Assembly: GCA_018262395.1 (NCBI GenBank)
Contig: JAGSYM010000018.1
Coordinates: 1-9,841 of the forward strand
DNA: 9,841 bases
Source: Nitrospirota bacterium
GTDB taxonomy: Bacteria > Nitrospirota > Thermodesulfovibrionia > Thermodesulfovibrionales > SM23-35
Direction of reading: 5' to 3'
Shown here: positions 1-9,841 of the stretch, one piece after another
How positions within the stretch are numbered: position 1 is the first letter of the stretch
Layout: each line of letters begins with the position of its first letter
The notes under the pieces: generated by a model
The model's input: only the letters and a program-made list of their open reading frames with translations
Told to the model about the DNA's origin: nothing
Databases searched by the model: none
Position numbers and translations under genes: made by a program

Positions 1-1481
1 CCATTCTTTCTCAGAGAATCGGCAAACACCGAGTCCCCGCCGTTCAGGGTGAGAATGAGCTTGTCTCCATCAAGCGTGAAGCCCGCATGTGAGAGTTTTG
101 ATTGCAGTGGAGGGGCCATTTTTCTGAGAGCCCTTTCCCGGATTTCATCGGTAATTGTCTGTCCTTCTGAAGCAATGGCCGGCGTTTCCTGACTGACAGG
201 TGCAGGCAGTGACACGAATTCCTCTTCCTGCACCTGTGAAAGTCTTGCAGAGGATTCTCCTTCAAATCCGCGGTTTCCCGATGATATATCGTGCGTGATG
301 GCAGGGGAGATTTTTTCGATATCTGCCTTTCCTGAATCCGGGACAAGCCTGATATATTTCTCCAAATTTTCGATCACCTCCCTGAGCGGTTTCATGTCAC
401 GCAGAAAACTTGCTTTTAAGAGGGATATTTCGAATGCAAAGCGCGGTACCGAAGCGTTTCGCACATCGAGTTCCGCTCTCAGTAATTCTGAAAGCAGGAG
501 GGTGAGATGGTCTTCCGATGTCTTCCGCAGTATGTTCTGCATGGCCGATAGATCTTCTTTGCCCAGATCGAGCATTTCATCTGGCTTTTTCAGAATGCTC
601 AGAACAAGCATGTCGCGGAAGAACTGAATAAGCTCACGGATAAAAGATCGGATGTCGGTGCCCTTTTCCGCGAGTTCAGCCGTGAGTGTCAGGATCTCTT
701 CCCTTTTGCCCTCAATCAGTGAGCTCGCGAGCTGAGCGATGAGGTTGAAATCTGTTATGCCGATGAGATCTTTTACATCCGTTTCACTGATATCTGATGA
801 AAACGATGAAAGTTGATCGAGTATGGTGAGTGAATCGCGAAGGCTTCCGTCAGCCGCCCGTGCTATCATTTCGAGTGCCGGGCCTGAGATACTGATGTGT
901 TCCTCTGTGGATATTTTTTTCAGCCGGTCCTTTATCAGGAGACTGGATATCCTCCTGAAAGGCAGATGCTGGCACCGGGACAGGACAGTAGCAGGAATCT
1001 TCCCCGGTGCTGTTGTCGCAAGAACAAAGACGACATGTGAAGGCGGTTCTTCAAGGGTTTTGAGCAGGGCATTAAATGCTGAGCCAGACAGCATGTGTGT
1101 TTCGTCGATAATGTAAACTTTGTATCTACCCCCTGATGGAACGTATTTAACCCGTTCTCTCAGGTCCCGGATATCATCAACGCTGTTATTCGATGCACCG
1201 TCAATTTCCATTACATCTACTGAAGACCCCTCTTTTATTGATGTGCAGAAGGAACACACCCCGCATGGAGCCGATGTCGGTCCAGCCTGGCAGTTCAACG
1301 CTTTTGCAAGGATGCGTGCTGTTGAGGTTTTCCCGACTCCCCGCGGACCTGAAAAGAGATACGCATGGGCAATCTTTCCCTGATCAATGGCGTTTTTGAG
1401 TATGCGGGTAATGGGTTCCTGACCGATAAGGTCATCAAACCCCTGAGGCCTCCATTTTCTTGCCAGTACTAAATAGCTCAT
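1..1481 (-). CDS. dnaX: DNA polymerase III subunit gamma/tau (clamp loader ATPase), 3' end outside window
   Basis: The reading frame is open from an ATG at 1481 to the left edge (493 codons plus two bases), so the C-terminus is missing. The product is the AAA+ motor of the clamp loader, which opens the beta clamp and links replisome polymerases. Visible motifs: N-terminal LARKWRPQGFDDLIGQ; Walker A GPRGVGKT at residues 45-52; a zinc module with Cys64, 73, 76 and 79 (C-x8-C-x2-C-x2-C); Walker B VYIIDETHML at about 122-131; sensor-1 SRC at 168-170. The collar region follows to about residue 365, then a low-complexity linker and the start of a C-terminal domain. The start is chosen because the family begins exactly at MSYLVLARK; there is no recognisable Shine-Dalgarno before it. 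It lies downstream of the SRP RNA on the same strand. The motifs make the family certain; whether a short gamma form is made cannot be seen. Confidence 0.96.
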   Translation of the reverse strand, partial: MSYLVLARKWRPQGFDDLIGQEPITRILKNAIDQGKIAHAYLFSGPRGVGKTSTARILAKALNCQAGPTSAPCGVCSFCTSIKEGSSVDVMEIDGASNNSVDDIRDLRERVKYVPSGGRYKVYIIDETHMLSGSAFNALLKTLEEPPSHVVFVLATTAPGKIPATVLSRCQHLPFRRISSLLIKDRLKKISTEEHISISGPALEMIARAADGSLRDSLTILDQLSSFSSDISETDVKDLIGITDFNLIAQLASSLIEGKREEILTLTAELAEKGTDIRSFIRELIQFFRDMLVLSILKKPDEMLDLGKEDLSAMQNILRKTSEDHLTLLLSELLRAELDVRNASVPRFAFEISLLKASFLRDMKPLREVIENLEKYIRLVPDSGKADIEKISPAITHDISSGNRGFEGESSARLSQVQEEEFVSLPAPVSQETPAIASEGQTITDEIRERALRKMAPPLQSKLSHAGFTLDGDKLILTLNGGDSVFADSLRKN

Positions 1482-1513
1482 AACAGTAGTTGTATGTTAT
1501 CAGTCCAAAATTA

Positions 1514-1623
1514 GTAATCTCCCCTAACCCCTCTTTAAAAAAGAGGGGGACATACCTTTCAATTCCCTCCTGTTAGAGGGGAAATATTCCTCCCTTTACT
1601 AAAGGGAGGTGAGGAGGGATTAC
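1514..1623. repeat. 110-bp palindromic dispersed repeat (MITE-like)
   Basis: The ends form an imperfect inverted repeat: GTAATCTCCCC at 1514-1524 and the complement of GTAATCCCTCC at 1613-1623 (9 of 11 match). Inside are three hairpins: 1528-1548 (9-bp stem CCCCTCTTT, loop AAA), 1565-1580 (5-bp stem) and 1589-1609 (9-bp stem CCTCCCTTT, loop ACT). No coding frame is apparent. It fills most of the gap between the SRP RNA and dnaX, so dnaX mRNA starting upstream would carry it in its leader. Neither hairpin is followed by a T-run on the minus strand, so it does not look like an intrinsic terminator. Multi-copy status is inferred from its form and cannot be checked here. Confidence 0.7.
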
Positions 1624-1663
1624 TCATGTAAGATATTGATCTCCTTACGACTTGTGGTTTCCT

Positions 1664-1790
1664 GTCTTTCTCCAGCCTGAGAGCGGCTACCTCCGGCACC
1701 CAGGAAAAACGCTTACCGCTGCTTCCTTCCGGATCTGACGGGGTTCACATCCACCTGCTGCGAAGGGCCGTTCCCAGGCTGCAGAAAGAC
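1664..1790 (-). ncRNA. ffs: Signal recognition particle RNA, small bacterial type (4.5S-like)
   Basis: On the minus strand the distal hairpin consensus is present: GTCAGATCC, then the tetraloop region GGAAGGAAGCAGC (about 1739-1718). This is the Ffh M-domain binding site, with the symmetric and asymmetric internal loops on either side. The RNA ends are set by the terminal pairing GTCTTTCT (1790-1783) with AGAAAGAC (1671-1664), followed inward by CAGCC with GGCTG. This gives about 127 nt, slightly longer than the E. coli 4.5S RNA; no Alu domain is seen. The RNA works with Ffh and FtsY to target membrane proteins co-translationally. It begins only 4 nt after the encoded CCA of tRNA-Ser, so it is probably cut from a shared transcript. 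Exact ends are inferred from pairing. Confidence 0.93.
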
Positions 1791-1794
1791 AATA

Positions 1795-1885
1795 TGGCGG
1801 AGAGAGTGGGATTTGAACCCACGGTACGGGATTAGCGTACACACGATTTCCAGTCGTGCTCCTTCGGCCGCTCGGACATCTCTCC
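1795..1885 (-). tRNA. tRNA-Ser, anticodon GGA, CCA encoded
   Basis: The minus strand folds as a class II (long variable arm) tRNA of 91 nt. The acceptor stem is GGAGAGA (1885-1879) paired with TCTCTCC, then discriminator G (1798) and genomic CCA (1797-1795). The anticodon arm CACGA-CTGGAAA-TCGTG gives anticodon GGA (reads UCC and UCU). The variable arm GTACG/CGTAC is typical of serine, and the T-arm is GTGGG-TTCAAAT-CCCAC. It lies between gatB and the SRP RNA, all on the same strand. A short open frame overlapping it is a translation of the tRNA and not a gene. Confidence 0.97.
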
Positions 1886-1900
1886 ACAAACTACAGTAGT

Positions 1901-1921
1901 CAGTAAATAGTAAACAGTAAA
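1901..1921. repeat. Three tandem heptamers in the gatB-tRNA gap
   Basis: CAGTAAA, TAGTAAA and CAGTAAA stand directly in tandem (TTTACTG/TTTACTA/TTTACTG on the minus strand), just upstream of tRNA-Ser. The rest of the 84-bp gap (1886-1969) is A+T-rich. It holds a good isolated -10-like hexamer on the minus strand (TAAAAT, in ATTTTACC around 1933) without a matching -35 at proper spacing, and no clear terminator for gatB. Confidence 0.5.
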
Positions 1922-1969
1922 TTCGTTCCGTATTTTACCATGAATGAAAAGTTAGCAGTAAAATCAGGG

Positions 1970-3400
1970 CTATGAAGAAAGCTTTTTCCTGAGTAAATCG
2001 TTGACCATCTGAGGGTTTGCCTTGCCCTTTGTCACCTTCATAACCTGCCCGACAAAGAATCCCAGGAGCTTCTCCTCACCGAACCTGTAACGTTCCGCCT
2101 CTTTCGGGTATTTTGATATAATTTCATCGACAGCCTTTTCAATCTCACCGGAATCGCTGATCTGCACAAGACCCTTTTCTTTCACAATGACGTCCGGGGC
2201 CTTACCGGTTGTGTATATTTCTTCAAAGACCGATTTGGCTATCTTTCCGCTGATCGTGTCATCATCCATCAGTCTCAACATATCAACAAGCTGGCTCGGT
2301 TTCAAAGAACAATCCTCAATAGTTTTATTGTCTGCATTCAATAGTCTCATGAGATCACCCATAACCCAGTTAGCAACGGATTTTGGCTGGCCGCCGAGTT
2401 TCACCGCCTCTTCATACCAGTCAGCCAAAGGTTTTTCAGATACGAGCAGGTCGGCATCAGTTTCAGGGAGACCATATTCTGAGACAAACCGCTCTCTCTT
2501 GACATCCGGAAGTTCGGGCAGGGAGGATCTGATTTCATCGATCCATTCTTTTTCAACAACAACCGGCACGAGGTCGGGTTCCGGGAAATACCGGTAATCA
2601 TGTGCTTCCTCTTTTCCCCGCATTGATTCTGTTACACCCCTGTTCGGATCCCACAGTCTTGTTTCCTGCACAATCCGGCCACCACTCTCGATGACCTTTA
2701 TCTGGCGTTTTATTTCATATTCAAGGGCTTTTTCGACAAACCTGAAAGAGTTGATATTCTTGATCTCTGTCCTTGTTCCAAATTCCGTTTGGTTCACTGG
2801 TCTCAGCGATATGTTTGCATCACACCTGAGCGAACCCTGCTCCATATTCCCATCACAAACGCCAAGATATCTGAGTATGGCCCTCAGTTTTTTCATATAT
2901 TCAACTGCTTCCTGAGGACTTCTGATATCCGGTTCAGAAACAATCTCCATGAGCGGCACGCCCGCCCTGTTCAGATCCACAAAACTGTAAGTCCCTGCTC
3001 CTTCATGGATATTTTTGCCCGCATCCTCCTCCATATGGATTCTCGTAATGCCGATTTTCTTCACGTTTCCGTCAACGATGATACCGATGTATCCATGCTC
3101 GCAGACAGGGAGTTCATACTGACTTATCTGATAGCCTTTTGGAAGGTCGGGATAGAAATAGTTCTTCCGTGCGAACCTGCTGAAAGAAGAGATTCTGCAG
3201 TCAGTGGCAAGTCCCGTCTTTATCGCAAACCAAAGGGCTTTTTTGTTCAGGACAGGGAGTACGCCGGGCATCCCGATACACACGGGGCATGTCTGTGTGT
3301 TCGGTTCAGAGCCGAATTTTGTTGAGCAGCCACAAAATATCTTTGTATCCGTGAGCATCTGTGCGTGAACTTCAAGGCCGATTACCGTTTCGTATTTCAC
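1970..3400 (-). CDS. gatB: Aspartyl/glutamyl-tRNA(Asn/Gln) amidotransferase subunit B
   Basis: 476 residues, full length for the family. GatB binds the mischarged Glu-tRNA(Gln) or Asp-tRNA(Asn), phosphorylates the misacylated carboxylate with ATP and receives ammonia from GatA in the cytoplasmic GatCAB complex. Visible: [12 protein letters not shown] at 3-14; a zinc site with Cys23, Cys25, Cys38 and Cys41; [16 protein letters not shown] at 79-94; HMEEDAGK at 122-129; [17 protein letters not shown] at 142-158; [13 protein letters not shown] at 208-220; and a helical YqeY-like tRNA-binding tail from about 328. The start is GTG at 3400, which fits the family N-terminus. It overlaps the gatA stop by 4 nt (GTGA), indicating translational coupling. 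The stop is TAG at 1972-1970. Nothing is missing or broken. Confidence 0.98.
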
Positions 3401-4854
3401 AGGTCAGGTTTCCTCCTGTGCCAGTCGGTGCTCTGTTCATAGGCATGGGCTACCCTGAGAACAGTCTCCTCATCAAAATGCTTCCCGATGCATTGCAACC
3501 CTATCGGCAGATTATCCGGTGTGAACCCGCAGGGCACAGAGATTGCAGGTAATCCGGCCAGATTGACGGATATCGTGAAAATATCGGACAGGTACATCTG
3601 GAGCGGGTCAGCGGTCTTTTCACCGATCCTGAATGCAGGGGTTGGCGTCGTGGGCGTTACGAGAAGGTCAACCTGTCTGAAAACATCCTCAAAATCCTGC
3701 TTGATCAGGGTTCTTACCTGCTGGGCTTTTTTATAATATGCCTCGTAATAGCCGGAAGATAATGTATAGGTGCCGAGCATGATTCTCCTCTTAACCTCAG
3801 AACCAAATCCGCGTGCCCGTGTATTCAGGTACATATCCATGAGGTCCCTGCCCTCAGCCCTGAGTCCGTATTTCACGCCGTCATACCGTGCAAGGTTTGA
3901 TGAAGCCTCTGACGTTGCAAGAATGTAATACGCCGCTATCGCATATTCTGTATGAGGCAGCGACACCTCGACAGGGGTTGCGCCAAGTCCTTCAAGTTTC
4001 TTGATGGCTGCGTACACGGCGCTTTCAATGTCTTTATCAATGCCTTCAATGAAATATTCTTTTGGAATGCCGAGCTTTATCCCTTGTATATCTTTATCGA
4101 GCACTCCGGTAAAATCAGGTACGGGCAACGGGGCAGACGTGGAATCACGGGGATCATGACCGGAGATGGCATTCATTAAGAGTGCGGTATCCCGAACATT
4201 TTTTGTAAGAGTACCTATCTGATCAAGTGAAGATGCAAAGGCAACAAGGCCATACCGTGAAACTCTCCCGTAGGTTGGTTTCATCCCGACGACTCCGCAG
4301 AGTGCAGCGGGTTGCCTGATCGATCCGCCGGTATCAGATCCAAGCGCAGCAATGCATTCATCGGCTGCAACTGCTGAGGCAGAACCTCCGCTTGACCCTC
4401 CCGGGATCCTTTCGAGATTCCAGGGATTTCCTGTTACATGGAACCCTGAATTTTCTGTTGATGAACCCATCGCAAATTCATCCATATTTGTCTTCCCGGT
4501 AAGGACATATCCGTTTTCACGCAGTCTTGATGTGACGGTACTCTCATAGGGGGGAATAAAATTGGACAGCATTTTGGACGAACATGTTGTCGGAATGCCT
4601 TTTGTGCACATGTTGTCTTTCACGGCAAGAGGAATGCCGCGAAGCATTGTGACCGGTGTGCCTGCATTGATTTCCTTCTGAGCGTTTTCTGCCATCTCGA
4701 GAGCTTTTTCCCGCGTCAGGGTCACATAGGCTTTGACCCTGCCTTCGACAGCGTCAATTCGCTGAAAGACAGCGTTTATGACATCCTGAGCAGACACCTC
4801 TTTTGTTTCGAGGAGATGTATCACCTCAGAAATTGAAAGTCTGAACAGTTCCAC
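3397..4854 (-). CDS. gatA: Aspartyl/glutamyl-tRNA(Asn/Gln) amidotransferase subunit A (glutaminase)
   Basis: Amidase-signature enzyme that hydrolyses glutamine and channels ammonia to GatB. With the GTG at 4854 as start it has 485 residues. The Ser-cisSer-Lys triad is visible as K79 (in GIPLAVKDN), S154 (in PGGSSGGSA) and S178 (in [12 protein letters not shown]). Other family blocks are [49 protein letters not shown] and [26 protein letters not shown] at 4863 is also in frame, but it lies only 3 nt from AAGGAG. The GTG lies 12 nt away, like the 11-nt spacing of gatB, and it gives the family's usual N-terminal length, so I prefer it, with moderate certainty. gatA is the first gene of the gatA-gatB pair. 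No gatC precedes it, so the third subunit must be encoded elsewhere. Confidence 0.97.
3412..3417 (-). promoter_or_regulatory. Ribosome binding site of gatB
   Basis: AGGAGG on the minus strand, inside the end of gatA, 11 nt before the GTG start of gatB. It is a perfect Shine-Dalgarno core with rather long spacing. It supports the GTG start together with the 4-nt overlap. Confidence 0.75.
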
Positions 4855-4866
4855 TGCGTGCAAATT

Positions 4867-4872
4867 CTCCTT
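4867..4872 (-). promoter_or_regulatory. Ribosome binding site of gatA, decides between TTG and GTG start
   Basis: AAGGAG on the minus strand (within TTAAGGAG). It is 3 nt from the TTG at 4863, too close for efficient initiation, and 12 nt from the GTG at 4854, a little long. The second reading matches the spacing seen for gatB. Confidence 0.6.
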
Positions 4873-4896
4873 AAGATTCGATAAAAAAAGTTATTC

Positions 4897-4925
4897 ATTA
4901 TGGCATGAGATACGGAATATCTCAA
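4897..4925 (-). promoter_or_regulatory. Sigma70-type promoter of gatA-gatB
   Basis: On the minus strand the -35 is TTGAGA (4925-4920) and the -10 is CATAAT (4902-4897), with exactly 17 bp between them. Each hexamer has 5 of 6 consensus bases. The predicted start of transcription lies near 4890, giving a leader of about 35 nt to the GTG start of gatA. It is the only well-spaced consensus-like promoter I see for the minus-strand block. Confidence 0.72.
4906..4924. promoter_or_regulatory. Dyad symmetry between -35 and -10 of the gatA promoter (operator candidate)
   Basis: TGAGATA (4906-4912), spacer CGGAA, TATCTCA (4918-4924): a perfect 7+7 inverted repeat that covers most of the promoter spacer and overlaps the -35. 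The same heptamer TGAGATA recurs at 4960-4966, within a second dyad, CAGAT-5-ATCTG (4956-4970), 54 bp upstream. The position would suit a repressor. The identity of any regulator is unknown. Confidence 0.45.
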
Positions 4926-4999
4926 GACGTTGCCCCCTCTATTTTGTCGTGATGTCAGATGAGATATCTGTGCTCCGAAAAACACTATGAAGAAGTTGT

Positions 5000-5014
5000 G
5001 AAGAGCAGCTCTTC
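5000..5014. promoter_or_regulatory. 15-bp palindrome next to the gspD promoter (operator candidate)
   Basis: GAAGAGC-A-GCTCTTC is a perfect 7+7 dyad with a one-base centre, ending 3 bp before the -35 of the secretin promoter. The minimal centre makes a protein-binding DNA site more likely than an RNA hairpin; the position directly upstream of -35 would suit an activator. A further AT-only palindrome, ATAATTAATTAT, lies at 5032-5043 across the promoter spacer. Confidence 0.4.
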
Positions 5015-5017
5015 TAC

Positions 5018-5046
5018 TTGACAATATGGTCATAATTAATTATTGT
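5018..5046 (+). promoter_or_regulatory. Sigma70-type promoter of gspD
   Basis: A perfect -35 TTGACA (5018-5023), a 17-bp spacer and a -10 TATTGT (5041-5046, 4 of 6 consensus bases) in A+T-rich DNA. The predicted transcription start is near 5053, about 37 nt before the TTG start codon. It is divergent from the gatA promoter, with about 93 bp between the two -35 hexamers. Confidence 0.65.
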
Positions 5047-5076
5047 TACATAATTATTTTTATCCGCAATATCCTG

Positions 5077-5084
5077 AGAGGTGA
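5077..5084 (+). promoter_or_regulatory. Ribosome binding site of gspD, decides the start codon
   Basis: AGAGGTGA matches the 16S tail well, 5 nt before TTG at 5090. An upstream in-frame GTG at 5081 lies inside this site and so cannot be the start that uses it. The TTG start also gives a neat signal peptide, MAKSKFILSLLF. Confidence 0.7.
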
Positions 5085-5089
5085 AATTT

Positions 5090-7279
5090 TTGGCGAAAAG
5101 CAAGTTTATACTTTCACTCCTGTTTATTTTTTTATTGTCGTTCTATTTCACTCCCCAGGCTTTTCCCCAGGATGCAGCTGATGAAACAGAAGAGGCCGTA
5201 GAAGATGAGCAGGCTAATGATACGGAAGAGAAGCCGAAAGAGGTACAGGGTCAGGTCCAACCTCCGGTAGCCCCCATTGCTGGACCGGCTACTGGTCAAC
5301 CGCCTCAGGAAGTAAAACAACCTGTTGTTGAGCCTCAGCAACCAGCAGCTCCTCAGCCGCCAGTCGCACCGCAGCCTCCTGTGCCGGCCGAGCCTGCAGT
5401 TCAGCAGGCAATTCCTCCTGCGCCTGAAACAGCGCCCACAGTTCCGCCTGCGGTTCCGCCACAGCCGGCTGCGCCTCCGCCACCACCCGTGCCTCAACCA
5501 CCAAAAGCAGCTCCTACAGTCAGTTTCTTTTTTGACGATGCGGATATCTATGAAGTAATTCAGACAATCTTTGCCGATGTCCTCAAAGTCAATTACATCG
5601 TTGATGCACAGGTCAAGGGTAGGGTGAACTTCAGGACGATTACACCCGTGCCGAAGGATGAAGTGTTGGCGATCATAGAAATCGTCCTGAGAATGAACGG
5701 GATCGGATTTGTTGAAGAACACGGGCTTTACAGAATAGTGCCCTTGACGGATGTCCCGAAAGAACTGGTGTATTCTCAGATAGGAAAAGCGCCTGAAAAG
5801 GTTGCCATCGATATGATTACATTCAAGAACCTGGAACTCAAGGAGGCTATGCCTGATATTGAGAATGCATTGGGACTACACCTAAAAGGAGGAACTGTAA
5901 GAATCCTTCCCATATACCGCCTTAATTCCCTCATCGTTGTTGCAACGTCAAGTGAACAATTATTTTATATAAAGAAATGGGTCCAGGTGCTCGATGATAT
6001 GTTCTCTGTAACAAGACTGAAGATTTTCGTGTATCCTTTGCAGAACAGCAAGGCAACACATATCGCATCGCTCATGCAATCAATTTTTTCGGGGAGTTCG
6101 GCAGGAGCAGCGACGACACCAAGTCCAACGCCAACGCCGAGACCGGCAACGCCAAGAACTGCAACAACCGGAACAACCACTCAACCGACAACTACCACAA
6201 GCACAGAGCTGAGAACCGGAGCAGCAGCAACTGTGAGCGGAGGAGGAAAATTCGTTTCCCCTGAAACAAAAGTGTTTGCTGATGAGATAACGAACTCATT
6301 AATCATCCTCGCAACACCAGCTGATTACTCTTTTATAGAAGAGACAATCAAGAAGATAGATATCCTTCCGAGGCAGGTTGTGATCGAGGCACTTGTCGCT
6401 GAGATAAAGCTGACGGATGACCTGAGTTTCGGGCTTGCGTGGTCTCTAAAAACTGATATCAATTTTTCGATGAAACCTTTTGACAACCCTGTTAAGCTCG
6501 ATGGTCGAATGGGGCAAAGGTCGTCTTCTCTGGGCGGTGAGGATGCAGCCACACTCTCGGGATCAGGGTTTAGCTTCCTTGCGACTGATCCTTCAGGAAT
6601 CGTGAGAGCCCGGCTTGAGGCCCTTGCATCAGCCTCACGGGCACGGGTTCTGGCGTCTCCGCACGTCCTTGTCCTCGACAACCGGGAAGCACGGATTCAG
6701 GTCGGCGATCAGGTCCCGATTGCGACTTCCGAGTCAAATATCACAGGGACGGACTCAATCCAGAGAACAATTCAGTATAAGGACACTGGCGTTATTCTTA
6801 AGGTAAAGCCTCAGGTGAATGAGGGTGGACTTGTCACGCTGGAGCTCTCACAGGAAGTCTCTACGTACAGCATACAAAGAATCTTTGACTCTGATCAGGT
6901 TGTCATAAGTAAAAGGGAGGCAACGACAAACCTTGTTGCGCAGAACGGGCAGACGATTGTTATCGGAGGCCTGATAACAGAGCAGACATCGAAAGCAAAT
7001 GAGGGTATTCCTTTTTTGAGCAAGATACCTCTTTTTGGTTATCTCTTCGGTTCTCTAACAGACAAATATGAACGAAGAGAGCTTATCATCCTGCTCACAC
7101 CGCATGTCATGAGGAATCTGAATGAAGCCGGTGATGTAACATCAGACTTTTTACAGAGGATGAAGGGTGTTCATCAGGATGTTGATACAGAGGGACTTGT
7201 AACAGATATGAGGGAACGGTACAAAGCACAAGGCAATAAGGAACAAAATATCCAAGACTTAAAGCAAAACACCCCTTGA
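5090..7279 (+). CDS. gspD: Type II secretion system secretin (GspD-like), with Pro-rich and Thr/Pro-rich low-complexity segments
   Basis: 729 residues from TTG at 5090. The family forms a multimeric outer-membrane channel. A signal peptide is clear (basic MAKSK, hydrophobic 6-20; cleavage site unclear). Next come an acidic stretch (31-50) and a Pro/Ala/Gln-rich segment (55-142) that may span periplasm or peptidoglycan. An N0 (STN-like) domain lies at about 143-220. Two N-type ring domains lie at about 242-305 and 310-425, the second interrupted by a Thr/Pro-rich insert (342-387). The secretin core is at about 430-676, with VVIEALVAEI, VGDQVPIATS, YKDTGVILKVKPQV, NGQTIVIGGLITEQ and IPFLSKIPLFGYLFGS, then a short tail. 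Only two N-ring repeats are apparent, whereas classical GspD has N1-N3. No gspE/F/G genes follow here. PilQ is less likely because no AMIN domain is seen. Secretin identity is very sure; the secreted substrate is unknown. Confidence 0.9.
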   Translation: MAKSKFILSLLFIFLLSFYFTPQAFPQDAADETEEAVEDEQANDTEEKPKEVQGQVQPPVAPIAGPATGQPPQEVKQPVVEPQQPAAPQPPVAPQPPVPAEPAVQQAIPPAPETAPTVPPAVPPQPAAPPPPPVPQPPKAAPTVSFFFDDADIYEVIQTIFADVLKVNYIVDAQVKGRVNFRTITPVPKDEVLAIIEIVLRMNGIGFVEEHGLYRIVPLTDVPKELVYSQIGKAPEKVAIDMITFKNLELKEAMPDIENALGLHLKGGTVRILPIYRLNSLIVVATSSEQLFYIKKWVQVLDDMFSVTRLKIFVYPLQNSKATHIASLMQSIFSGSSAGAATTPSPTPTPRPATPRTATTGTTTQPTTTTSTELRTGAAATVSGGGKFVSPETKVFADEITNSLIILATPADYSFIEETIKKIDILPRQVVIEALVAEIKLTDDLSFGLAWSLKTDINFSMKPFDNPVKLDGRMGQRSSSLGGEDAATLSGSGFSFLATDPSGIVRARLEALASASRARVLASPHVLVLDNREARIQVGDQVPIATSESNITGTDSIQRTIQYKDTGVILKVKPQVNEGGLVTLELSQEVSTYSIQRIFDSDQVVISKREATTNLVAQNGQTIVIGGLITEQTSKANEGIPFLSKIPLFGYLFGSLTDKYERRELIILLTPHVMRNLNEAGDVTSDFLQRMKGVHQDVDTEGLVTDMRERYKAQGNKEQNIQDLKQNTP

Positions 7280-7395
7280 CAGTAACCTTCGTTTTTCTGC
7301 ACTGCATCTCCACTCATGATGTTCAATTGAGTTTATCCCGATTCTTTCTTTTTACATCTGAATAATACTATGGTACGAACGTTATCTCAGGAACG

Positions 7396-7468
7396 GTCAC
7401 CCTGAACTTGTTTCAGGGTCTTCAAATTCGTTATTCTTGTAAAGATGCTGAAGCGGGTTCAGCATGAC
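7396..7468. repeat. 73-bp double-hairpin dispersed repeat in the gspD-wzm gap
   Basis: The ends GTCACCCTGAAC (7396-7407) and GTTCAGCATGAC (7457-7468) are inverted copies (10 of 12). Each end belongs to its own hairpin: 7399-7419 (8-bp stem ACCCTGAA, loop CTTGT) and 7445-7465 (8-bp stem ATGCTGAA, loop GCGGG). This matches a type of intergenic palindromic repeat common in bacterial genomes, known to me only from memory. No T-run follows either stem, so it is not a standard terminator. The rest of the 275-bp gap (7280-7554) shows no gene and no promoter I would defend. Confidence 0.7.
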
Positions 7469-7554
7469 AGGTGTGTAATCGGAATGATAAATTGTGCGGT
7501 GGCACTGCAGATCGGACAGATGTCTTGTGAGATGTCCCGCACAGAAAGTGTGGT

Positions 7555-8325
7555 ATGAAAAAAAAATCTTTAGAATACTATAAAGATTTAGTTGTTGTTC
7601 TTACCCAGAAAGAACTCAAAGTGAGATATAAGAGGAGCTTTCTCGGCTATCTCTGGTCGATCGCCAATCCGCTCGCTCTTGCCCTGGTTTTTTTTGTCGC
7701 TTTCAAAATATTCATGAGGATCCCAATAGAAAACTACACATTATTTCTCATTACCGGCCTCTTCCCGTGGCAGTGGTTTCTTAATTCCGTGAGCAGTTCA
7801 GCGATGGTTTTTGTTGGTAACGCTACATTAATAAAGAAAATGCATTTCCGGCATGAGGTTCTCATCGTTGCGACAATACTGAATGACATGTTGCATTTTA
7901 TTTTATCGATTCCGGTTATCATTCTCTTCCTGTTCATTTACGGTTTCAAACCAAGTATGGAGTGGTTCATAGGTATTCCGGTCTTGCTCGTGATACAGTT
8001 CATGATGACCTTTGGATTTTCTCTCGCAATTTCGGCGATAAATCTGTTCTTTCGAGATATTGAAAGAATAGTGTATATCCTCACCTCGCTGATGTTTTAT
8101 ATGATTCCGATCATTTATTCGGTAGACATGATCCCGCGTGAATATCAGACACTCGTTATGTCCAATCCGTTATCTATCCTCATGATCAGCTGGAGAAATC
8201 TTTTTATGCACGGAACACTGGCATTCAAGGACGCTGCCATTGCATTTTTCTATTCCGGAGCGGTTTTAGCGGTTGGCTATCTCATATACAGAAGATTGAA
8301 ATGGAGATTTGCTGAGGTTCTGTAG
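7555..8325 (+). CDS. wzm: ABC-2 type polysaccharide exporter, permease subunit (Wzm/TagG-like)
   Basis: 256 residues, the usual size of the family. It forms the inner-membrane channel through which a lipid-linked O-antigen, capsule-like or teichoic-type polymer leaves the cytoplasm. Family marks: an amphipathic N-terminus with KELKVRYKRSFLGYLW (19-34), GLFPWQWF (68-75), FFRDIERI (165-172) and SNPLSILM (203-210). About six membrane segments are visible, near 33-53, 62-82, 108-130, 138-163, 172-190 and 228-245. The ATG at 7555 is the first in-frame start; only a weak purine-rich stretch (GAAAG) precedes it. It is followed at once by nine A residues (7558-7566), giving Lys-Lys-Lys. The stop TAG directly abuts the ATG of the ATPase gene, so the two are one transporter operon. 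The substrate cannot be read from the permease. Confidence 0.93.
   Translation: MKKKSLEYYKDLVVVLTQKELKVRYKRSFLGYLWSIANPLALALVFFVAFKIFMRIPIENYTLFLITGLFPWQWFLNSVSSSAMVFVGNATLIKKMHFRHEVLIVATILNDMLHFILSIPVIILFLFIYGFKPSMEWFIGIPVLLVIQFMMTFGFSLAISAINLFFRDIERIVYILTSLMFYMIPIIYSVDMIPREYQTLVMSNPLSILMISWRNLFMHGTLAFKDAAIAFFYSGAVLAVGYLIYRRLKWRFAEVL
8314..8317 (+). promoter_or_regulatory. Ribosome binding site of the ATPase gene inside the end of wzm
   Basis: GAGG, 8 nt before the ATG at 8326, lies within the last codons of wzm. The stop and start codons are contiguous (TAGATG), an arrangement that favours coupled translation of the two subunits. Confidence 0.6.
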
Positions 8326-9841
8326 ATGGATTATCCTATATCGTTCAAAGATGTTTATAAAGAATATCCATTTTACCAGCATTTAACCGCCGGATTTAAA
8401 TCGTTTTTATTCAATCTGCCAAAAAGTATCGCATCGTTAAAAAAGACGAGATTTGTGGCACTCAAGGGGATATCCTTTGAGGTCGAAAAAGGGGAAATCT
8501 TTGGCATTGTTGGCAGAAATGGATCGGGCAAGAGTACTATTCTTGGACTCATAGCCGGGGTTTTGAAACCTGATAGTGGTTCCATTGTAACCCATGGAAA
8601 GATTTCGTCTCTCCTTGAACTGGGGGCAGGCTTTCATCCTGAGTTATCGGGTATCGAGAACATTATCTTAAATGGAATCCTTTCCGGAAATACGCGGGTG
8701 GAAATGATGAAGAAGATGGAGGAGATTATAGATTTCTCCGAACTCGGTGATTTTATTTATCAGCCGCTCAGAACCTATTCTTCGGGAATGCATGCACGGC
8801 TCGGGTTTTCTGTGGCGGTGCACGTAGATCCCGAAATCCTGCTTGTGGACGAAGCGCTTGCAGTCGGTGATTTGGAATTCAAGGAAAAGTGCAACAGAAA
8901 GATGAAAACGTTCATGGAGTCGGGAGCAACGATTATCATCGTCAGCCATGACATGCCTGCAATAGCAGAACTGTGCAGCAGAGTTGCGTGGATAGATGGA
9001 GGCACTATTATGAAAATCGGTAGTCCCCGAGAGGTTATCAGGGAATATTTACACTCTCTGGGCATTGTTCTTGATGAGGAAGAAGCTGAGCTGCTGAGTG
9101 AATCAGAAATCGAGACTGTGGCTGATAAGAATGATACGATTCAACATTCCGGAGATGTTTTAGCATTAGTTGCTGAACCCCCTGATGCCCAGGACAGAGG
9201 CGAAGCTGTTGCACAGGATCTGATTTCACCACCAGTGCATGTCCCTTCCTCATGGTGGGATTCACCCATCATCATGCAACAGATTGAGGCGTTCATTACC
9301 GGTGACCCCGGAAGAAGTTTTTATGACTATCTGAAAAAAGAACATTCCATTGCCGGCCTTCAGAAAGGCTTGAGTATCTGTCATAAGTTGAAGGGATTAG
9401 AACAGAGTTTTACGAAATATCATACATGCGCATCATTCGACATTCTGAATGATTTCGATGTGCCCGACTACCTGACGCATGAGATAGGGAAAATTAAGCC
9501 CAGCCAATATGATTTATTGCTCAGCGTTGACGTCCTCAGCCATATCGGCAACCTTGAACATTTTTTAAAGGATGCAGAGAATATTCTGAAAGATGATGGG
9601 TTTGTCGTTGGACTGGAGTACACCGGCCCCGCACATTTCCAATGGACGGAGCAGGAACTCATCATAGCAGATATGCTCGCTACAGCGTTCAACAGCCAGC
9701 CTGATTTGACTTTCATCGCTGAAACAAAATCTGAAAAGACTGCTACTCCTTTTCCGGACGAAAAAGCTGCTGTGAGCTCAGACATTGTCATCCCCACGCT
9801 GGAGAGGGTCTTCGATATTATTGCCGTCAGGTATTTTGGAG
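8326..9841 (+). CDS. wzt: Wzt-like polysaccharide export ATPase fused to a degenerate methyltransferase-like domain, 3' end outside window
   Basis: One uninterrupted frame, 505 codons to the edge. Residues 1-245 are a complete ABC ATPase of the O-antigen/teichoic type: Walker A GRNGSGKST (63-71), LLELGAGFHPELSG (96-109), signature YSSGMHARLGF (151-161), Walker B ILLVDE (171-176) and H-loop His208. It powers the adjacent permease. An acidic, low-complexity linker follows (246-308). From 309 the sequence resembles class I SAM methyltransferases of polysaccharide clusters: SWWDSPIIMQ (309-318), TGDP (325-328), YDLLLSVDVLSHI (395-407), LKDDGF (421-426), LEYTGPAHFQWTE (430-442), and IVIPTLERVFDI near the edge. 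The SAM loop is degraded: GLSICHKLKGLE (348-359) replaces the family's GCGxG. The stretch to YDLL is about 15 residues short. No Wzt carbohydrate-binding domain is seen. ATPase identity is sure; the methyltransferase relationship is strong but from memory; loss of catalysis is inferred. Confidence 0.92.
   Translation, partial: MDYPISFKDVYKEYPFYQHLTAGFKSFLFNLPKSIASLKKTRFVALKGISFEVEKGEIFGIVGRNGSGKSTILGLIAGVLKPDSGSIVTHGKISSLLELGAGFHPELSGIENIILNGILSGNTRVEMMKKMEEIIDFSELGDFIYQPLRTYSSGMHARLGFSVAVHVDPEILLVDEALAVGDLEFKEKCNRKMKTFMESGATIIIVSHDMPAIAELCSRVAWIDGGTIMKIGSPREVIREYLHSLGIVLDEEEAELLSESEIETVADKNDTIQHSGDVLALVAEPPDAQDRGEAVAQDLISPPVHVPSSWWDSPIIMQQIEAFITGDPGRSFYDYLKKEHSIAGLQKGLSICHKLKGLEQSFTKYHTCASFDILNDFDVPDYLTHEIGKIKPSQYDLLLSVDVLSHIGNLEHFLKDAENILKDDGFVVGLEYTGPAHFQWTEQELIIADMLATAFNSQPDLTFIAETKSEKTATPFPDEKAAVSSDIVIPTLERVFDIIAVRYFG

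Follow-up and report, generated by a model that had tools for sequence, protein, structure and literature searches.

The locus and its fused gene

The stretch of DNA analysed here, called the window below, covers 9,841 nucleotides of a Nitrospirota genome (assembly GCA_018262395.1, contig JAGSYM010000018.1, positions 1 to 9,841). At its right-hand end lies a wzt-like gene, in which the ATPase of a Wzm/Wzt-type polysaccharide exporter is continued by a domain with the fold of a class I methyltransferase. This domain has lost the residues that bind the methyl donor and is probably catalytically dead, and the leading reading is that it has become a recognition module on the export motor. The parts of the gene are as follows.

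8326..9841, + strand: wzt-like gene fused to a probable pseudo-methyltransferase domain; it runs past the window end (full length 564 amino acids in the homologue P0001)
8326..9063, + strand: nucleotide-binding domain (NBD) of the Wzt/TagH type, residues 1-246 (ABC_tran, E 6e-21; NBD tree)
9064..9249, + strand: acidic, fast-evolving linker, residues 247-308 (16 D/E and 2 K/R among 62 residues in P0001)
9250..9841, + strand: probable pseudo-methyltransferase domain, residues 309-505 of 309-564 (Pfam, alignment, and a model of the 59% identical P0007)
9367..9402, + strand: former motif I, the glycine loop for S-adenosylmethionine (SAM), reading GLSICHKLKGLE where GISICSGSGEFE is expected
9478..9498 (approximate site), + strand: deletion of about 17 residues that removed the β3 region and a conserved Asp (alignment, P0007 model)
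9529..9531, + strand: D402, invariant in 58/58 fused domains, with Ser or Gly in 66/89 free-standing ones

A first-pass annotation of this DNA had described an ATPase frame that passes without a stop through the acidic linker into the motif SWWDSP, and the gene is indeed built in this way. The frame runs for 505 codons from 8326 without an internal stop and leaves the window at its end, SWWDSP begins at exactly base 9250 (residue 309), and all the motifs quoted in the annotation are present in the translation. The sequence beyond 9841, including the last 59 or so residues of the domain, is supplied by P0001, which over 505 residues has two differences from the window protein, at 218 and 429. 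In a protein search, residues 300-505 were matched by 24/24 reported proteins at E <= 4e-51; P0007, P0015 and P0018 among them are pieces that lack the ATPase half, and additional searches yielded further domain-bearing proteins. No stop separates the two parts, and 52 of the 58 fused-type rows collected (near-copies such as P0001-P0004 being counted) are single chains in which Walker A and the YSSGM signature occur together with the methyltransferase-fold domain. The unbroken frame, P0001 and these 52 one-chain homologues rule out two separate open frames or a chimeric assembly.

The assignment of the first half to the Wzt type is supported as well. It has the Walker A and signature motifs of an ATP-binding cassette NBD, its gene adjoins one for a wzm-type permease in 7/7 fused loci, and models for teichoic acid/galactan exporter ATPases match it at E 1e-66 to 2e-57, under their cut-offs.

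Fold of the C-terminal domain

The C-terminal half has the fold of a class I methyltransferase and is not a Wzt_C domain, as the first-pass annotation had proposed and as profile searches and the P0007 model agree. Profile hidden Markov model searches with the part after residue 306 alone gave weak matches to Methyltransf_12, 23, 11 and 31 (E 7e-5 to 0.04, under the curated Pfam cut-offs) and none to Wzt_C, and some fused members exceed a methyltransferase cut-off, e.g., L039 with 23.0 bits for Methyltransf_11 vs the required 21.2. Wzt_C (PF14524) was matched by 0/17 fused members up to E 1, and a profile comparison gave it 0.2%; a Wzt_C domain concealed at low similarity is rejected on these two results. 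The model of P0007 has the Rossmann-like class I fold. A structure prediction for the full protein (17 rows) reached a predicted local distance difference test score of 37.6 and was not used.

Loss of the cofactor site

Class I methyltransferases hold SAM with a glycine loop, contact its ribose through an acidic residue after β2 and its adenine through an Asp after β3. The closest relatives of the fused domain are free-standing methyltransferases that keep this site, and the two groups were compared in an alignment of 147 domains, 58 fused and 89 free (4 of 151 were dropped as shorter than 180 residues; three of the free rows are truncated at motif I, and P0026 is a fused-type fragment misfiled as free). 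The two motif I glycines, found in 84/89 and 83/89 free rows, are each present in 0/58 fused rows; in the window protein they are K354 and K356. The column of the Asp after β3, which holds Asp in 82/89 free rows, is deleted in 58/58 fused rows; in the P0007 model, β2 (93-99) is followed directly by β4 (120-126), with no strand in between. The acidic residue after β2 is D/E in 33/58 fused vs 88/89 free rows, at a column where the alignment is unsure. The erosion goes beyond the cofactor site: the D, P and E of the motif DPSEAVR, possibly part of the acceptor site of the free enzymes, each occur in 86/89 free rows, and the D remains in 14/58 fused rows, while the HH pair falls from 88/89 and 89/89 free rows to 11/58 and 30/58 fused ones. 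Other positions have been kept strictly, namely WW and the E, Y and G of EY.GP, all in 58/58 fused rows.

These losses make the fused domain probably a pseudoenzyme, as judged by its sequence. They contradict the suggestion of the first-pass annotation that chain termination had been placed directly on the export motor, at least as a catalytic event. A still active methyltransferase with an unusual SAM site could explain why SWWDSP and EY.GP are conserved as in the nearest free enzymes and why a few fused members pass a Pfam cut-off; those matches, however, span only the later part of the profiles, and with the two glycines of motif I and the Asp that follows β3 absent throughout the clade, and DPSE..R and HH eroded, we consider it very improbable. 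An active bifunctional ATPase-methyltransferase was rejected on the loss of the SAM motifs.

At the former pocket, Lys or Arg stands at both former glycine positions in 51/58 fused rows, and D402, near the end of a following strand, is the invariant Asp listed above. Such a pattern would suit a ligand sensor, in which the rebuilt pocket binds a small anionic ligand (phosphate, a nucleotide sugar or a lipid phosphate) and regulates ATP hydrolysis. The basic residues and the Asp could, however, merely pair and fill the pocket, and we regard a sensor as rather improbable.

Selection on the domain

All eight fused genes compared (8/8) are open frames. For the pair L001/L040, the only one with a synonymous divergence (dS) below 1 in the domain, the ratio of nonsynonymous to synonymous divergence (dN/dS) was 0.22/0.93, or about 0.24, in the domain, 0.08/0.80 in the NBD and 0.36/1.24 in the linker. 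Four further pairs gave ratios of about 0.1 to 0.5 at an unreliable dS of 1.4-3.4, and the remaining pairs were saturated. The ratio in L001/L040, the least saturated pair, points to purifying selection, and many positions are invariant across the fused domains, so that the domain appears conserved rather than decaying. A neutral remnant of the fusion, drifting without function, would account for the faster change of the domain relative to the NBD (proportion of nonsynonymous differences, pN, 0.19 vs 0.08 in L001/L040) and for the spread of ratios in the four further pairs; given the open frames, the low dN/dS and the invariant positions, it is the least probable of the explanations considered here.

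Origin of the fusion

The fused copies form a single clade in both halves. In a tree of the C-terminal domain, built by a quick method without the motif columns, a branch with a support of 100 in the Shimodaira-Hasegawa-like approximate likelihood-ratio test (SH-aLRT) sets 40 fused domains apart. They adjoin a group of 14 free rows (the SGSGEFER enzymes and L041), the flanking branches having supports of 92 and 90. For the ATPase half, the 15 nearest non-fused NBDs in 395 Nitrospirota genomes (48-61% identical, E <= 1e-72, in a search that scored only six candidates per genome) all belong to proteins that stop 1-25 residues past the NBD. In an NBD tree of 48 rows, the 17 fused sequences stand together (100/99) and group with 14 of the 15 short ATPases (96/96). 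Apart from them lie 15 of the 16 ATPases with a long C-terminal part, a set in which 12/16 have Wzt_C above its cut-off; L043 and one short ATPase pair elsewhere, and several branches are long.

Because the fused NBDs group with short ATPases, the simplest history is that a tail-less Wzt gained the methyltransferase domain, on a tree that is rooted at its midpoint and by a preference for gain over loss that rests on parsimony; loss of the domain from the short ATPases would be the less likely course. The same tree disfavours a swap of Wzt_C for the methyltransferase domain. The first-pass annotation had placed the new domain in the stead of the usual sugar-binding domain, and this is correct for the architecture and probably not for the history, the nearest ATPases being short and without any C-terminal domain. 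The loci of seven short relatives were also searched for a neighbouring family gene from which the fusion could have arisen. There was no profile match at E <= 1e-3 in 6/7 loci, and the seventh, L101, has a weak candidate in a 1062-residue protein (E 9e-5); this route was rejected.

Free-standing relatives

The free-standing relatives P0053-P0080 and L041 are the same domain at full length, with SWWDSP and EYIGP, and differ from the fused copies in that their glycine loop is intact and both the Asp after β3 and DPSEAVR are still there. For thirteen free enzymes, identity to the part of the domain inside the window is 27-33%. The first-pass annotation had recognised the relatives as separate methyltransferases of surface-polysaccharide clusters, which fits the 14 of 16 free-enzyme matches whose flanks were taken (G358 and G061 were left out): Wzm- and Wzt-like genes are nearby in 10/14 loci. 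Among these ten Wzt, eight have Wzt_C above the cut-off, L041 has it below the cut-off, and L043 has no match. A free enzyme next to a Wzt with Wzt_C resembles the enzyme-plus-reader arrangement of capped O antigens. To our knowledge, capping activity has been described for none of the free family members near Wzm/Wzt.

Distribution and genomic surroundings

The named sources of the fused proteins are Nitrospirota or Thermodesulfovibrionales (P0018; L001 and L002, the other eight loci of that search matching the ATPase part alone), and the seven placed fused genomes are all Nitrospirota. The survey covered this phylum in a draw of 395 genomes, 42 of which match the domain profile at E <= 1e-3: the fusion in 7, a free enzyme close to it in 1 (G124), matches at a greater distance in 15 (E 1e-19 to 1e-26, in one case within a 1922-residue protein) and weak ones in 19 (E >= 3e-5). 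Since 157 of these 395 genomes have Wzt_C above cut-off, the fusion is a minority architecture. Wzt_C occurs elsewhere in 4/7 fused genomes, and in 3/7 (G130, G126 and G001) the fusion is the sole Wzt-like ATPase at E <= 1e-30. None of the seven, which are drafts of unstated completeness, has a strong free copy of the family besides the fusion (G130 has one marginal match, E 8e-4), so that a free copy acting as the writer of a mark was rejected.

Two neighbours of the fused gene are constant.

7555..8325, + strand: wzm-like permease, directly upstream of the fusion (ABC2_membrane, E 8e-15; 60-75% identical in 7/7 fused loci)
5081..7279, + strand: GspD-type secretin, conserved upstream of wzm (type_II_gspD, E 9e-117, above cut-off; 7/7 fused loci)

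The order gspD-wzm-wzt is found in 7/7 fused loci (L001, L036-L040 and L042; the wzm of L040 was masked by an overlapping frame and recovered by tblastn). About 10 kb on each side was read per locus, L001 being only 6.4 kb long.

Comparison with known systems

In the better-known systems, as passages of PMC9445017 describe, capped chains are admitted by a carbohydrate-binding domain on Wzt that recognises the cap, and the C-terminal domain of the A. aeolicus Wzt recognises a 3-O-methyl cap. The fusion resembles such Wzt_C-type proteins (E. coli O8/O9a, Aquifex aeolicus) in having an NBD followed by a C-terminal accessory domain, beside wzm; it differs in that their domain is a jelly roll and its own a methyltransferase fold, and in that its ATPase falls among the tail-less ones. 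Its NBD groups with 14 tail-less Nitrospirota ATPases, which resemble the short Wzt of systems without a carbohydrate-binding module (K. pneumoniae O2a type) in having no C-terminal domain; they stop 1-25 residues past the NBD, where the fusion continues for about 320. With WbdD and the coiled-coil terminators it has in common a methyltransferase fold in the pathway of an ABC-exported glycan. WbdD is treated in PMC11231755 as a methyltransferase-kinase with a coiled-coil ruler, on a protein apart from the pump. No kinase family matched the window protein, and a rough heptad scan for coiled coils flagged 0/7 fused proteins. Among the open-access matches listed (titles and the starts of abstracts), there was no description of such a fusion; the 2019 census by Mann, Kimber and Whitfield lay outside this coverage.

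Possible role of the fused domain

We tentatively favour a binding role without catalysis for this part of the export motor, the most likely target being the end of the glycan. In this proposal, a class I methyltransferase, now without its cofactor site, would have become attached to a short Wzt export ATPase in a single event and been retained since. Hung from the NBD by the acidic linker, at the site where other Wzt carry their carbohydrate-binding domain, it would engage the glycan substrate, at the non-reducing end or a decoration there, and thereby gate or recruit export. The old cofactor pocket has Lys/Arg for the glycines and D402, residues assumed to be in contact; a salt bridge may now occupy it, or it may have been remodelled to take a ligand. 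A more specific version is possible, if doubtful: an enzyme that once wrote a mark on glycan ends ceased to catalyse and, by fusion, became the chain-end reader of a tail-less motor, a second, independent invention of substrate recognition.

Several observations weigh against glycan engagement. Of DPSEAVR the fused clade has for the most part kept A and V and lost the other five residues (D, P, S, E and R); as HH and FQW are less strictly kept too, the former acceptor site may no longer exist. There is no conserved capping enzyme beside the fusions, since gspD, wzm and the fusion are the only genes common to all seven loci and the next most shared occur in at most four. The nearest ATPases are tail-less, and a known tail-less system, according to the portion of PMC11231755 cited here, needs no cap reader. 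The eight Wzt_C-bearing contexts of free enzymes lie in a more distant subgroup with one shared gene order and amount to about one observation, and L041, the only locus of the nearest free group, has its Wzt_C match only under the cut-off. Finally, the Foldseek TM-scores of the P0007 model are low (0.27-0.42 by query, with root-mean-square deviations of 7-16); VIA-align was confined to Foldseek's own matches, and nothing can be concluded from its not naming other folds. The erosion of DPSEAVR and the lack of a conserved capping gene are the reasons why our confidence in the glycan is no higher.

The main rival, ranked close behind and in our estimate somewhat unlikely, is a docking domain, by which the pseudo-methyltransferase would hold a glycosyltransferase complex or another partner at the transporter, tie export to synthesis in this way, and read no sugar. 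It would agree with the place of the NBD among tail-less ATPases, and with the O2a transporter that lacks a carbohydrate-binding module, in which export and extension are obligatorily coupled and chain length follows from the coupling (PMC11231755, in the part cited). It would also give a role to the coiled-coil protein of 951-965 residues that is encoded next to the fusion in L036 and L038, with three glycosyltransferase family 2 (GT2) stretches in L036. This neighbour, however, directly follows the fusion in only 2/7 fused loci, and apart from wzm and gspD any partner gene is common to no more than four.

Were the chain-end reader version correct, a capless-type transporter would have acquired a new selectivity gate. 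The ability to tell a finished from an unfinished glycan is described, in the sections of the work cited above, for the jelly-roll domain of Wzt; if a dead methyltransferase acts on the motor, this export checkpoint would have arisen on at least two occasions, one of them from a modifying enzyme. The fusion would also offer a compact system for asking whether tail-less transporters gain selectivity by domain gain.

Other arrangements in related loci

A secretin gene, gspD, travels with the polysaccharide exporter in the window and in 7/7 fused loci. Some of the tail-less wzm-wzt pairs that are most similar to the fused ones (L097, 7798-17704; L099; L100) lie ahead of a type II secretion-like run, with T2SSG, T2SSE and T2SSF confirmed in L100, what looks like the same cluster in L099, and T2SSE confirmed in L097, where a sugar transferase gene stands ahead of wzm. 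Export and type II secretion genes may be linked in Nitrospirota.

The coiled-coil proteins encoded directly after the fused wzt in L036 (6790-9645, - strand) and L038 (6761-9658, - strand) have their coiled coil about one third along the chain, by a rough scan, and resemble a chain-length ruler. In L043 (3386-9154, + strand), wzm-wzt is followed by a 1922-residue protein that combines a pyruvyltransferase domain with glycosyltransferases, with a coiled coil and with a member of the present methyltransferase family whose glycine loop is intact, possibly an all-in-one polymerase-terminator. The 1062-residue protein of L101 (9461-12649, + strand), directly after a tail-less wzt, contains a heptosyltransferase-family part and a methyltransferase. 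P0080 joins a glycosyltransferase group 1 domain and a methyltransferase from the free group nearest to the fusion.
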